The position numbers and the translations under genes were made by a program. Below, one piece after another: positions 15,694 through 49,430 of a DNA stretch of 64,000 bases; the stretch's first letter is position 1, and each line of letters begins with the position of its first letter. The notes beneath the pieces were generated by a model. It was not told the DNA's origin. It worked only from the letters and a program-made list of their open reading frames with translations, and did no database searches. Source of the stretch: an uncultured Jannaschia sp. (GTDB taxonomy: Bacteria; Pseudomonadota; Alphaproteobacteria; Rhodobacterales; Rhodobacteraceae); NCBI RefSeq assembly GCF_947494025.1, contig NZ_CANLTQ010000011.1, forward strand, positions 1 through 64,000, read 5' to 3'.

Positions 15694-16439
15694 GGGCGTT
15701 CTCCGCGCAGAAAGGCGCTCCAGCCCGCCGCGTCGTGCGCGTGGACTTCGAAGTGGTGGCCGGCATAGCCCGCGCCGCTGTATTCGGCGCTCAGGCCGGC
15801 ATAGACCCCCGGACGGTCGGCCTCCAGCCGGAGCACGTTCACATGACCCGGGATCGCGTCGAGCTTGCCGGCGAGCCGGGGCACCCAGAAGCTGTGGATC
15901 ACGTCGCGGGTCGTGATGGCGACGTCCACCGGCCGGCCGGCGGGGATGTGGAGGACACCCTGCGTCACGCGGCCTTCCGCGTCGTCGTAGCCGAAGGACC
16001 AGATCCATCGCTGCGCCACGGCCGAGACGCTCACGACGTCCGAACCGGCCCGCGGCATCAGGCGCTCGCCCACCCAGAGCCCGTAGAACAACAGCGCGGC
16101 CAGGACGGCGAACGGGAAGGCGAGGCCGAGGCCGTGGATCCACACCCGTTCCCCGCGCGCGCCGTCCGCGCCGTCCGCCACGGGGCGCGACCGGAAGGCG
16201 CCCCAGAGAAGACCCGCCACGAGAAGGCAGATCAGCGCCGCGCCCGCCAGCATCACCCACCAGAGCGTCGCGATCGCCGCCGCGGCGGGCCCCGCCGGGG
16301 CGACGACGGACAACGCTTCGTTGCAACCCGCCAGCGCGAGCGGCATTGATGCGAGAACGCCCCCGCGCAGGAGCCGCCGCCCGTGCCCGAACAGGTCCAG
16401 AACGCCGACGAGACCCTGATCGACCCGATCACCAGCCAT
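15690..16439 (-). CDS. Heme-copper oxidase subunit II lacking CuA ligands (quinol-oxidase-like), lipoprotein
   Basis: The protein has a lipoprotein signal (RRLLRGGVLASMPLALAGC), two membrane helices, and a cupredoxin domain with QRWIWSFGYDD and SFWVPRLAGKLDAIPG. At the CuA site, cytochrome c oxidases have C-x3-C-x3-H-x2-M. Here the stretch is LSAEYSGAGYAGHHF, with Ser replacing both Cys. The SAxYSGxG form is that of CyoA of cytochrome bo3 quinol oxidase, so quinol is the likely electron donor. The start is uncertain: ATG at 16346 would leave only 7 residues before the lipobox Cys. ATG at 16439 (used here, 249 residues) or a CTG at 16394 gives a proper signal but overlaps the divergent DUF2231 gene. 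Confidence 0.85.
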   Translation of the reverse strand: MAGDRVDQGLVGVLDLFGHGRRLLRGGVLASMPLALAGCNEALSVVAPAGPAAAAIATLWWVMLAGAALICLLVAGLLWGAFRSRPVADGADGARGERVWIHGLGLAFPFAVLAALLFYGLWVGERLMPRAGSDVVSVSAVAQRWIWSFGYDDAEGRVTQGVLHIPAGRPVDVAITTRDVIHSFWVPRLAGKLDAIPGHVNVLRLEADRPGVYAGLSAEYSGAGYAGHHFEVHAHDAAGWSAFLRGERP

Positions 16440-16898
16440 CCCGGATGGGATCAGACGGAGTCGAAGATCTCGATCCACGGGCATCCGATCCACGCGATGA
16501 CGGTCTCCTTCCCGGTCGCGCTGACCTTCTGCACCTTCGGGGCCGACCTCCTCTACTGGTGGACGGGCGATCCGTTCTGGGCGCGGGCCGGCATCTGGGC
16601 GGCGGGAACCGGGTTCCTGTTCGGGATGCTGGCCGGGCTGTCGGGAACGATGGAGCTTTTGTTCGTGTCGGGCATCCGCGCGCGGGCCGCGGCCTGGACG
16701 CATTTCATCATCGCGGTCCTGCTGCTGGCGCTTCTGGGCACGAACTGGGGCCACCGGCTCTATGGCTATGAGACGGCGGTGCTGCCCTACGGGCTGCTTC
16801 TGTCGAGCGTCTGCGTGCTCGTGGTGGCGTTCACCGGATGGCATGGCGGCAAGCTCGTCTTCGACTATCGGCTGGGAACGTCGAAGGGCAGCGACTGA
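16383..16898 (+). CDS. DUF2231 membrane protein
   Basis: The protein has 171 residues with about four membrane segments. The DUF2231 signature GHPIHAMTVSFPVALTFCTF is near residue 33, followed by YWWTGDPFWARAGIWAAGTG. The function of the family is unknown; it often accompanies redox or copper proteins and resembles heme-binding membrane domains through its conserved His residues. The GTG start at 16383 has AGGAG about 11 bases upstream. The gene is divergent from the oxidase operon and its 3' end overlaps the convergent CopD-like gene by 34 bases. Confidence 0.88.
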   Translation: MPEQVQNADETLIDPITSHPGWDQTESKISIHGHPIHAMTVSFPVALTFCTFGADLLYWWTGDPFWARAGIWAAGTGFLFGMLAGLSGTMELLFVSGIRARAAAWTHFIIAVLLLALLGTNWGHRLYGYETAVLPYGLLLSSVCVLVVAFTGWHGGKLVFDYRLGTSKGSD

Positions 16899-45692: not shown

Positions 45693-45958
45693 ATGAATGT
45701 ATTACCTCTCGGAGCCGATTTGCCGACGACCGTGACATCCAAGGGACAGGTGACCATCCCCGAAGCCGGTGCGCGACTTTCTCGGAATCGAGCCCGGCAG
45801 CCGCGTGGGCTTCGGACGGACGGAGGACGGTCGCGTCGAGCTACGGCCCGAAGGCGCCGCGCCGGACGCTGGCCGATCTGCGCGGCCAGGCCGGGCCTGG
45901 ACCCTCCACCGGGGAAATCATCGCGCTGACGCGAGGGGAGGTCTCGGACGGGGCGTGA
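45693..45958 (+). pseudogene. AbrB/MazE-type antitoxin, broken by two frameshifts
   Basis: The first frame gives the AbrB swapped-hairpin start TTVTSKGQVTIPE. One base later the next frame gives VRDFLGIEPGSRVGFGRTED and GRVELRP. A further one-base shift gives TLADLRGQAGPGPS, then TGEIIALTRG and a TGA at 45956-45958. All three pieces are the expected consecutive parts of one antitoxin, so two net +1 shifts (near 45758 and between about 45845 and 45870) have destroyed it. Its final TGA overlaps the toxin GTG (GTGA), the normal coupling in such pairs. Confidence 0.8.
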
Positions 45959-46353
45959 CCTTTATCAACACGAACGTCCTGCTCGATCTGGTGACGGACG
46001 ACCCGATCCACGCCGACGGGTCGCTGGCGCGGCTCGAAGAGGCGGCGCTTCGCGGACTGCTCGTGATCGGCGACGTCGTCTGTGGCGAGCTGTCCGTGCG
46101 TTACGAGCGGATCGAGGATCTCGACGCCTTCGTGGCGCAGGCGGGGCTCCGGCGGACGGCGATGCCGGACGCGGCGCTGGTTCTGGCCGGCAAGGCGTTC
46201 CGGTCCTATCGGCGCTCGGGCGGCACGCGGGTGGGGGTGTTGCCGGACTTCTTCGTCGGCGCGCAGGCGGCGCTGGCCGCCCGCCCGCTGCTCACCCGGG
46301 ACGTGACGCGGTATCGCACCTACTTCCCGTCGGTGGAGCTGATCGCGCCGTGA
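45955..46353 (+). CDS. PIN-domain toxin (VapC-like), catalytic Asp replaced
   Basis: The protein has 132 residues and an intact frame. It begins TFINTNVLLDLV, where PIN nucleases have I-D-T-N-V; the first catalytic Asp is Asn here (AAC against GAC). Other acidic residues are present: Glu in VVCGELSV, Asp in LPDFFVGAQA and Asp in LLTRDVTRYRTYFP. VapC proteins cut tRNA or rRNA; this one is probably inactive, in line with the broken antitoxin. The GTG at 45955 follows GGGGAGG. Confidence 0.82.
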   Translation: MTFINTNVLLDLVTDDPIHADGSLARLEEAALRGLLVIGDVVCGELSVRYERIEDLDAFVAQAGLRRTAMPDAALVLAGKAFRSYRRSGGTRVGVLPDFFVGAQAALAARPLLTRDVTRYRTYFPSVELIAP

Positions 46354-46555: not shown

Positions 46556-48019
46556 TCACACCCCTTCGAGCAGGCGGATCTTGAGGTCGCGGAAGGCGCT
46601 GCGGGCGCGGGACTCGCGCTCGTGGTCGAGCATCGCCTCGATCTCGGCCCCCATCTGGCGCAGCCGCGCGTCGCCGAGACGCTGCGCCTCCTTGAACATC
46701 GAGCGCTCCTCGGAGCTGGCATGGTGGTCGACCGCTTCGTGCAGGGCGCGAAGCTGCGCCTCGAATTCCGGGCTCGACGGCCCGAGCCGCAGCGTCACCG
46801 CGAGCATGTCGGCGAGCTGCTGGTGCTCCGCATGGGCGACGGGCACGTCCTCGCTGACGGGTCGGACGGCCGGGTAGAAGATCTCGTCCTCGACATGCTC
46901 GTGGATCTCGAGCTCACCCGCCAGCAGACGCATCACGTCGCGCCGCTCCGGGTCGTCGGGCGCCATCGCCTCGATCCGCTCGAAGAGCCGGCGCATGAGC
47001 TCGTGATGCTCGAAGAGCACTTCGTCGGCCTTGCGCGCCCCGGGCGGCGGGGACGGCTCCGGCCCTTGCGTGGCGGCGTCGATCTCCTGCGGGGTGAGCG
47101 CCTCGTCCCCCGGCTCCGGCACACGGCGGATCTCGACTTGGCCCCCTCGCACACGCGCGTCGTAGCGCGGCTGCGGCGCGGTGGAGGGGCCGTCGAGCAC
47201 GCGCCCGTCGCGGAGGCAGAAGCGCGAACCGTGCCAGGGGCAGACGAGGCCGCCATCCTGCACCCAGCCCTCGTCGAGCGGGCCGCCCATATGGGAGCAG
47301 CGCGACCCCATCGCGTGGACGCGCCCGCGATGGCGCACCAGAGCGACACCGATCCCGGCGCGCGCGGCCTCGTCCCAGACCTCCACGCGGCGCGGCCGGT
47401 CCTCCTCCAGCGCGTCGAGGGGAAGGACCGGCATGAAGGCGCGCGGCTCGGGCGAGCGGTCGGCCTGATCGACGCCCACGCCGCGGCGATAGACGAGGTG
47501 GCCGCCGAGCCAGGCGCCCGCCGCCATCGCGGCCCATCCCGCGCCGCTCAGCGCCCGGCCCGCGGAGCGGCGGCCGCGCCGGCGCAGCGCGAGCGAGCCG
47601 AGGGCAAGCGCGAGCGCGGTCGAGTTCGCGGCGGCGTGGACGAGCCCGGTGCGGCGGTCGCGGCCGTGGATCTGCCGCCAGTCGGCGATCCCGGCCGCCG
47701 CGGCGGCGACGGCCCCGCCCGCGCCGGCCGCCAGCGCGATATCGGCCGCCCGCGCCGTCCGCGGATCGTCGGAGAGGCCCAGCGTTTCCGCCGTATCGAG
47801 GGCGAAGGCCAGCGTCCAGCCGCCGACGGGCAGCGTCGCGAGCAGCGGGTGCAGCGGGTGGCCGAGCCACGTCCCGTGCAGCGCGTTCTCGATCGGCTGC
47901 GCCGCGCGTCCCATCGGCTGGAGCGCGAGCGAGGCCGCGTTGGCGACGTCGTAGGAGGGACGGTCGAGCCGCTCCTCGCCCTCGATGGCGGCAACGATGC
48001 GCTCGGTTCGCTGGCTCAT
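46556..48019 (-). CDS. DUF2231-Rieske-hemerythrin triple-domain protein
   Basis: The protein has 487 residues. Residues about 30-170 are a DUF2231 membrane domain (GTWLGHPLHPLLATLPVGGW and later helices). Residues about 200-305 are a Rieske domain with cluster motifs CSHMGG (C-x-H) and CPWHGSRF (C-x2-H). Residues about 335-470 are a hemerythrin HHE domain with FEHHELMRR, EIHEHVEDEIFYP, AHAEHQQL and VDHHASSEE as iron ligands. A membrane redox or oxygen/NO sensor or scavenger is a reasonable inference. AGAAAGGGA precedes the ATG at 48019. It neighbours EcfG-type genes; its own promoter candidate is poor. Confidence 0.9.
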   Translation of the reverse strand: MSQRTERIVAAIEGEERLDRPSYDVANAASLALQPMGRAAQPIENALHGTWLGHPLHPLLATLPVGGWTLAFALDTAETLGLSDDPRTARAADIALAAGAGGAVAAAAAGIADWRQIHGRDRRTGLVHAAANSTALALALGSLALRRRGRRSAGRALSGAGWAAMAAGAWLGGHLVYRRGVGVDQADRSPEPRAFMPVLPLDALEEDRPRRVEVWDEAARAGIGVALVRHRGRVHAMGSRCSHMGGPLDEGWVQDGGLVCPWHGSRFCLRDGRVLDGPSTAPQPRYDARVRGGQVEIRRVPEPGDEALTPQEIDAATQGPEPSPPPGARKADEVLFEHHELMRRLFERIEAMAPDDPERRDVMRLLAGELEIHEHVEDEIFYPAVRPVSEDVPVAHAEHQQLADMLAVTLRLGPSSPEFEAQLRALHEAVDHHASSEERSMFKEAQRLGDARLRQMGAEIEAMLDHERESRARSAFRDLKIRLLEGV

Positions 48020-48218
48020 GACTCGTTCCCTTTCTCGATCCGCACGGCAGGCGGGCAAGTGCCGCGCCGGGGGCAACCGCGGCCCTCCGCGCGCGCCGCT
48101 CGGGGGGCCAACGAGGGCCCGGATGATTTGGTTTCCCGCCATTCCGTCGGTTGACGCGACCGTTGCGGTTTTTGCGACGCGCTCGGAAGAGCGTTCGCAT
48201 GGGGCGTCAGACCGGCGG

Positions 48219-49430
48219 TCAGGCCTCGGAGCGCGTCGGCGGGCTTGCGTAGCGGCTGCCGCGAGGTCTGGCCACATTATCGAAATCGCGGGCCAACCGG
48301 TGCAGGGCGTCGCACACCCGCGGCCCGGCCAGCGGGGCCCCGTGGCCCGACAGGATCAGGTCGGGCGCGAGCTCGGCCAGCCGCCGCGCGGAGTCGCGCG
48401 CCTGGTCCCATTCCGTCGTGAAATAGGCGGGCGGGCCGTGGATCTCGGGGGCCTGCGTCGCCACGGCATAGGCGGATTCCTGGCGCGTGGTGACGACGGC
48501 GTCGCCGGCAAGCAGCGTCCGGTCGCGCGCGCGCCACAAGGAGATGTGGCCTAGCGCGTGGCCGGGCGTATGGAGCCAGCGCCAGTCCGGCGCCCCCGGG
48601 ACCGTACCGTCGTCGGGCAGGGAACGGAGGCGCGGCCGCACGTCCACGGGCGCGGTCGGATACAGGCCAGCGAGCGCCGCCATCGCCCCGCCGCCGACGC
48701 TCGGATCGCCCGGGGGGTAAGCCCGCGAGCCGTCGAGATAGGGATGTTCCAGCGGGTGCGCGAAAACGGGGGCGTCCCAGCGTTCGGCCAGTTCCTCGAG
48801 CGCGCCGACATGGTCGAAATGCCCGTGGGTCATCACGATGGCCGCGGGGCGGGCGCCGGATCCGAACCGTTCCGTCGCCGCCGCCGCGATCGGGCGCGCC
48901 GTGCCGGTCAGGCCGGCATCGACGAGGATCCAGTTCCGGTCGCCGGCGCCGCGTGGCCCGAGAAAGGCGACGTTGACGATGCCGAGCCGGCGATAGGCGA
49001 GTTCCGGCGCCACCTCGCGGATGCGCGACCCGCGCTCGATCCGCGCGATCGCGTCCGCGCCGACCGGAACCTGGCGACCCACGCGGCGCTGTGACCGTTC
49101 CGGCCGGTCCGTCAGAAGCGCCACCGCGATCGAGAACAGGCCGTAGCCTGCCAGCAATCCCCGCACCTCCGGCGGCTCGTGCTTGAGCATCGCGGCGGCG
49201 GCGCAGAAGCCCGCGCCCTGAAGCGCGTCGAGCGCCAGATGCTCGGACATCGACAGCGGCGCCGTCGAGGGCCGGTCGTAGCGGGTCAGCAGGCTATAGG
49301 CCGCGACACCGGCGCCGGCCGCCGCAAGCGGCGCGTGGAGCCGTCTGTTCCAGCGCAGGATCCGGGGCGCCGCGACAAGCGCGGCCGCGGACAGCGCGTC
49401 GAGCGCGGCATGAAGGCGGGGCGGGATCAT
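48219..49430 (-). CDS. Membrane-anchored metallo-beta-lactamase-fold hydrolase
   Basis: The protein has 403 residues. Residues 1-130 contain about four hydrophobic helices. Residues 150-390 are an MBL domain with the metal motif MTHGHFDHVGALEEL, His in LHTPGHALGHISLW, Asp in LLAGDAV and a final SGHGAPLAG. Such domains act as glyoxalase II-like or related hydrolases; the substrate is unknown. The start codon overlaps the stop of a 34-residue ORF (ATGA), and an EcfG-type promoter lies upstream. Confidence 0.9.
   Translation of the reverse strand: MIPPRLHAALDALSAAALVAAPRILRWNRRLHAPLAAAGAGVAAYSLLTRYDRPSTAPLSMSEHLALDALQGAGFCAAAAMLKHEPPEVRGLLAGYGLFSIAVALLTDRPERSQRRVGRQVPVGADAIARIERGSRIREVAPELAYRRLGIVNVAFLGPRGAGDRNWILVDAGLTGTARPIAAAATERFGSGARPAAIVMTHGHFDHVGALEELAERWDAPVFAHPLEHPYLDGSRAYPPGDPSVGGGAMAALAGLYPTAPVDVRPRLRSLPDDGTVPGAPDWRWLHTPGHALGHISLWRARDRTLLAGDAVVTTRQESAYAVATQAPEIHGPPAYFTTEWDQARDSARRLAELAPDLILSGHGAPLAGPRVCDALHRLARDFDNVARPRGSRYASPPTRSEA

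Follow-up and report, generated by a model that had tools for sequence, protein, structure and literature searches.

The window analysed here, 64,000 nucleotides of DNA from an uncultured Jannaschia sp., encodes on its minus strand a 487-residue protein in which a DUF2231 membrane domain, a Rieske domain and a hemerythrin-like diiron domain follow one another (Table 1). The reading frame opens with an ATG at 48019, preceded by a ribosome-binding-like AAGGGAA, and closes with a stop codon at 46556-46558. Pfam places DUF2231 at residues 53-184 (E 2.9e-19; 70 bits against a gathering cut-off of 26.4), Rieske at residues 196-286 (E 1.4e-16) and Hemerythrin at residues 332-444 (E 1.4e-13), the latter two also above their curated cut-offs. 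This agrees with a preliminary description of the locus, which had recognised the same three domains in one chain and to which we add the strand. Third-position GC stays at 0.91-0.97 throughout the three domains and the linker, so nothing in the gene suggests a frameshift or join, and the existence of full-length homologues in other genomes rules out an assembly chimera. A longer mechanical open reading frame from 48277 was set aside, as the homologues begin at the ATG at 48019. A long antisense open frame over the same interval is unsupported as a gene, such frames being usual in GC-rich DNA. The fusion gene is single-copy in this genome.

Table 1. Features of the fusion gene and its upstream neighbour in the window (residue numbers refer to the fusion protein)
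Feature	Position	Strand	Basis
MBL-fold hydrolase, N-terminal region membrane-like; next gene upstream of the fusion	48219..49430	-	Pfam; also in congener G012
DUF2231-Rieske-hemerythrin fusion, complete CDS, 487 aa	46556..48019	-	Pfam, third-position GC, homologues with equivalent start and end
DUF2231 membrane domain, residues 53-184	47468..47863	-	Pfam, AlphaFold2
HPLH motif with H54 and H57	47849..47860	-	Invariant in 66 aligned homologues
H128	47636..47638	-	Invariant in 66 aligned homologues
Rieske [2Fe-2S] domain, residues 196-298; ligands C241, H243, C260, H263	47126..47434	-	Pfam, alignment, Foldseek
W252, Rieske domain	47264..47266	-	Trp in all scored homologues linked to an HLP; absent without HLP
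Linker, residues 300-330, lowest model confidence; gene boundary in mycobacteria	47030..47122	-	AlphaFold2, split loci
Hemerythrin-like diiron domain, residues 331-470; helix 450-484 follows	46610..47029	-	Pfam, PDB match, alignment, AlphaFold2

The fusion is genuine, rare and made of known domains. The preliminary description would have been refuted by its absence from all relatives, which is not the case: a genome-collection search found full-length fusions (51-82% identity) in at least 12 other alphaproteobacteria, among them Loktanella, Falsirhodobacter, Paracoccus, Citreimonas, Geminicoccus, Roseicella, Dankookia, Azospirillum and a Porphyrobacter MAG, and in one congener, G012. The latter, at 79-80% identity, is the only carrier among the 20 congeners sampled. 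Of 385 sampled alphaproteobacterial species, and likewise of 399 from the phylum, only the genome of the window has the fusion. In addition to the 12 full-length fusions, Paracoccus sp. WLY502 and Caenispirillum each have a fusion gene split by a break in the frame, which may reflect decay or sequencing error. The alignment of fusions used below comprises the window protein and 11 of the 12 from the collection; the Citreimonas protein was left out, its N-terminal part reading aberrantly within DUF2231 around H54 and H57, perhaps likewise through decay or sequencing error. A plasmid of Roseomonas marmotae (L014:4932-5234) carries, just downstream of an IS110 transposase, a truncated hemerythrin piece that is 69% identical to the fused diiron domain and is probably a remnant of the fusion or of its partner.

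No conserved gene neighbours of the fusion were found among the alphaproteobacterial carriers, as would be expected for a self-contained gene that spreads horizontally. The MBL-fold hydrolase gene overlaps the fusion gene by 4 bases in the congener, and we do not claim it as a component because it is not conserved beside the fusion in other carriers. EcfG, SigF and DosR promoter motifs were not enriched, and no stress-promoter motif was found. An EcfG-like GGAAAC-N17-CGTT at 48110-48136, spotted only after reading the sequence, is not consensus. Convergent with the fusion gene lies a sequence (45769-46353, plus strand) that, judged by eye, is PIN-domain-like (VapC-type) with an apparently AbrB-like start.

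The AlphaFold2 model of the fusion (pLDDT 92.8, pTM 0.70) shows an N-terminal helix (residues 16-48), four long helices (56-79, 86-114, 119-147 and 151-177), a Rieske fold, a weakly predicted linker (300-320) and a helical bundle. By helix order, the model would put H54, H57 and H118 on one side of the membrane, together with the Rieske and hemerythrin domains. The indications of which side this would be conflict: the loop at residues 144-154, across the membrane from the Rieske domain, has a charge that by the positive-inside rule would place the Rieske and diiron domains outside, whereas neither the fusion nor mycobacterial hemerythrin-like proteins (HLPs) appear to have a signal peptide, which, like cytoplasmic cluster assembly, favours the inside. 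The preliminary description had also suggested a membrane heme. H54, H57 and H128 are nearly invariant, yet no sequence similarity of this DUF2231 domain to any solved structure was detected, and comparison with E. coli cytochrome b561, for which one CybB sequence was used, gave an hhalign probability of 0.2%. A relationship to cytochrome b561 thus finds no profile support, and the suggested membrane heme is unsupported. The window also holds a stand-alone DUF2231 gene (16383-16898, plus strand; E 1.9e-37), divergent from a COX2/COX1/CtaG terminal-oxidase cluster, whose product retains the HPxH motif and the equivalent of H128.

The two metal-binding domains retain all their predicted ligands, as the preliminary description had held: the Rieske and hemerythrin ligands are invariant in the 12 aligned fusions, and the CxH...CxxH motif of the Rieske cluster is also invariant across 66 aligned homologues. 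Among the matches listed, the Rieske domain is nearest to dioxygenase ferredoxins. G246 and W262 occupy the positions of the bc1-type disulfide cysteines; with this second cysteine pair missing and the bc1/b6f NCBIfam models far below cut-off, a bc1/b6f-type Rieske subunit was rejected. S265 is present and position 267 is Tyr in 8 of 13 fusions, features that are associated with higher-potential Rieske centres. In the diiron domain, H338/H339, H373-xxx-E377, H399, H433-xxx-E437 and Y382 are invariant in the aligned fusions. The link to the CHARACTERISED enzyme is provided by the HLP of Mycobacterium kansasii (PDB 6q09), which is the best PDB match of this domain (phmmer E 6.4e-20; Foldseek TMt 0.82, 34% identity) and with which the predicted four-His, two-Glu ligand set H339, H373, E377, H399, H433 and E437 aligns. 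HLPs are reported to have a coordinating Tyr, for which the invariant Y382 is a possible counterpart; 6q09 has two adjacent Tyr, and the same Tyr-Pro occurs also in unrelated HHE proteins. The fused domain shares its diiron fold, His/Glu ligand positions and clade with the published HLPs (Rv2633c and M. kansasii HLP), which differ in having been studied as soluble, stand-alone proteins, whereas the alphaproteobacterial domain is joined to a Rieske and a membrane domain.

The M. kansasii HLP is reported to be a NO peroxidase with weak catalase activity and not to act as an oxygen carrier (PMC8913304). Oxygen-carrying hemerythrins use five His, one Glu and one Asp (PMC9388753), and the H / HxxxE / H / HxxxE pattern of the fusion differs from that set, so membership of the carrier class was rejected. 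The iron-sulfur cluster repair family (RIC/YtfE; TIGR03652, 9.4 bits against a cut-off of 204.7) and the PA2171 persister family (51.9 bits against 190) were rejected as well. A role as oxygen store or carrier, or in iron storage or cluster repair, could appeal to the hemerythrin-type four-helix bundle; given the ligand pattern, the repair-family score and the report that HLPs do not carry oxygen, we regard it as very improbable.

The diiron domain has a counterpart encoded by a separate gene. Two-domain DUF2231-Rieske proteins are common across many phyla, and no recurrent operon partner emerged for them as a class. In 19 fetched loci (17 from Mycobacterium, one from Modestobacter and one from an Eremiobacterota MAG) a separate hemerythrin reading frame of about 159 residues follows the DUF2231-Rieske gene. 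In all 19 the HLP start lies within the Rieske stop codon as a 4-bp NTGA overlap (18 ATGA, one TTGA). Among 30 further mycobacterial loci, some of which share species with the first set, an HLP gene follows in 29, 27 of them with ATG, GTG or TTG in the 4-base overlap. The same two parts are fused in one lineage and appear as translationally coupled neighbours in another, which constitutes, as read from sequence, a classical fusion link. The association is close to complete in both directions. DUF2231-Rieske lies directly upstream in 30/30 of the nearest genomic relatives of 6q09 (89-98% identity), and when both genes were scored in one sample of 119 mycobacterial genomes, DUF2231-Rieske lay within 200 bases of 42 of 45 HLP genes, while 42 of 42 close Rieske homologues stand beside an HLP gene and 0 of 12 Rieske paralogues do. 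The three exceptions among the HLP genes (L176, L177 and L178) lack an intact DUF2231-Rieske gene next to them; at L178 a C-terminal stretch of 31 residues is left of the Rieske gene, and at the other two a partner is undetectable. Four mycobacterial genomes carry two complete DUF2231-Rieske/HLP pairs each. HLPs have been stated to occur only in mycobacteria that cause respiratory disease. We found homologues in 88 of 298 sampled Mycobacterium species, and this spread, together with the fused and paired forms outside the phylum, is wider than the published range.

Alternatively, co-transcribed genes could have been joined fortuitously, with no direct electron exchange, the HLP acting alone and DUF2231-Rieske serving something else. 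Most fetched DUF2231-Rieske proteins have no hemerythrin within their flanks, and two mycobacterial HLPs are without a detectable partner. Against this, the linkage is almost complete both ways and spans three phyla, and the HLP-linked DUF2231-Rieske proteins form one group with conserved Rieske and membrane residues of their own. In the DUF2231-Rieske tree, fused, adjacent and unlinked proteins fall into three separate groups (SH-aLRT 99, 99 and 96); taken without a known root, this tree would fit a single association of the parts followed or preceded by no more than one fusion or fission. In the hemerythrin tree, 6q09 groups with the mycobacterial partners (support 100/100), and fused, adjacent and M. 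kansasii proteins split together (100/99) from a small outgroup of seven unrelated intact plasmid hemerythrins, several of them on long branches. Two-domain proteins without a linked hemerythrin share the DUF2231 and Rieske domains and ligands of the fusion at about 35-51% identity, and they are without W252, Y23 and H118, all of which the fusion has. In a first set, W252 occurs in 32/32 HLP-linked against 0/47 unlinked proteins, Y23 in 31/32 against 0/47 and H118 in 29/32 against 2%. A second set, not fully independent by descent because its linked part is all mycobacterial, gave 49/49, 48/49 and 49/49, respectively, each against 0/12. Part of this signal could come from shared ancestry. W252 sits between the two cluster-binding motifs, making it a natural candidate for a docking or conduit residue. 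Weighing these observations, we consider a fortuitous fusion decidedly improbable.

The preliminary description had suggested that electrons could pass between a membrane heme and the diiron site. The occurrence of the Rieske and diiron parts as overlapping gene pairs in other organisms strongly suggests a redox link between these two centres, and the heme end of the path is unsupported. It had further left the choice between a sensor and a scavenger of oxygen, NO or peroxide. A NO/peroxide scavenger is favoured, since the HLP of M. kansasii, for which NO peroxidase activity is reported, falls in one clade with the diiron domain. For a redox or oxygen/NO sensor, in which the diiron and Rieske centres would sense and DUF2231 or a partner would relay the signal, there is the precedent of bacterial hemerythrin domains known as O2/redox sensors (PMC9388753). 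The fusion has no signalling output domain by Pfam, no regulator or kinase neighbour is conserved among carriers, and the diiron domain falls within the HLP clade; a sensor is on these grounds improbable.

Drawing on architecture, ligands, linkage, phylogeny and signature residues, all results at the level of sequence, we lean towards a redox enzyme anchored in the membrane that would detoxify NO or peroxide through electron exchange between the Rieske cluster and a diiron site of the HLP type. That the cofactors are bound, that electrons pass and in which direction, what the substrate is and how the protein lies in the membrane are the inferred parts of this model. The fusion would unite in one chain a membrane redox system that elsewhere has two parts. 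DUF2231 would hold the Rieske domain at the membrane surface, where the cluster could dock on the four-helix bundle, with W252, Y23 and H118 as candidate interface residues. Single electrons would then pass between the [2Fe-2S] and Fe-O-Fe centres, and the diiron site would turn over NO and/or H2O2, probably yielding nitrite and water. We prefer transfer from Rieske to diiron, which would give peroxide or NO reduction and stress protection. Rubrerythrin likewise joins a diiron peroxidase to an iron-sulfur (rubredoxin) centre in one chain; it differs from the fusion in having rubredoxin in place of Rieske, a ferritin-like diiron fold and no membrane domain. A precedent for a Rieske cluster feeding a diiron site is T4moC-T4moH of toluene 4-monooxygenase, where transfer occurs at about 12 A (PMC4200526), although that system has an unrelated diiron fold, is soluble, consists of separate polypeptides and carries out hydroxylation chemistry. 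Several points count against the detoxifying enzyme. In the NO peroxidase reaction reported for the M. kansasii HLP, the electrons come from NO itself (PMC8913304), so a Rieske partner is not required by it; neither a stress-promoter motif nor a conserved stress-gene neighbourhood was found around the carriers; the loop charge conflicts with the other indications of topology; and the two mycobacterial HLPs with no detectable partner weigh in the same direction.

Electrons might instead flow the other way. As a NO oxidase, the diiron site would oxidise NO to nitrite, and the electron would leave via Rieske and DUF2231 for a membrane acceptor such as the quinone pool. The retained S265 and the Tyr at 267 would suit this, as would the position of the stand-alone DUF2231 gene next to the oxidase cluster. 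Isolated M. kansasii HLP converts NO to nitrite anaerobically and at best stoichiometrically (PMC8913304), as expected if the acceptor is missing. The bc1-type disulfide cysteines are absent, however, the dioxygenase ferredoxins that are nearest among the matches listed are usually low-potential, and no quinone or heme site was detected in DUF2231 by comparison with solved structures and b561. We consider a NO oxidase rather unlikely.

For the mycobacterial proteins, the fusion probably exposes an overlooked redox partner of a characterised enzyme. No description of the DUF2231-Rieske/HLP partnership or of this domain combination was found in the open-access literature, to which the search was confined; the terms 'hemerythrin-like protein', Mycobacterium and Rieske never occur together there, and two HLP papers, PMC8913304 being one, make no mention of Rieske. 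Work on mycobacterial HLPs has so far treated the enzymes in isolation, with NO donating the electrons or in single-turnover NO oxidation (PMC8913304). A membrane Rieske protein encoded just upstream, in a conserved position and often with overlap, and found fused to the HLP in alphaproteobacteria, suggests itself as the physiological redox partner. We regard as evenly poised the fuller proposal in which NO-peroxidase HLPs of the Rv2633c/M. kansasii type and a DUF2231-Rieske partner, which would supply or remove electrons, together make up in vivo a catalytic, membrane-bound NO/peroxide oxidoreductase that alphaproteobacteria would carry as a single polypeptide. The fusion offers a ready one-chain construct for the question of the redox partner and, if the proposal is true, it would provide the first functional context for DUF2231.
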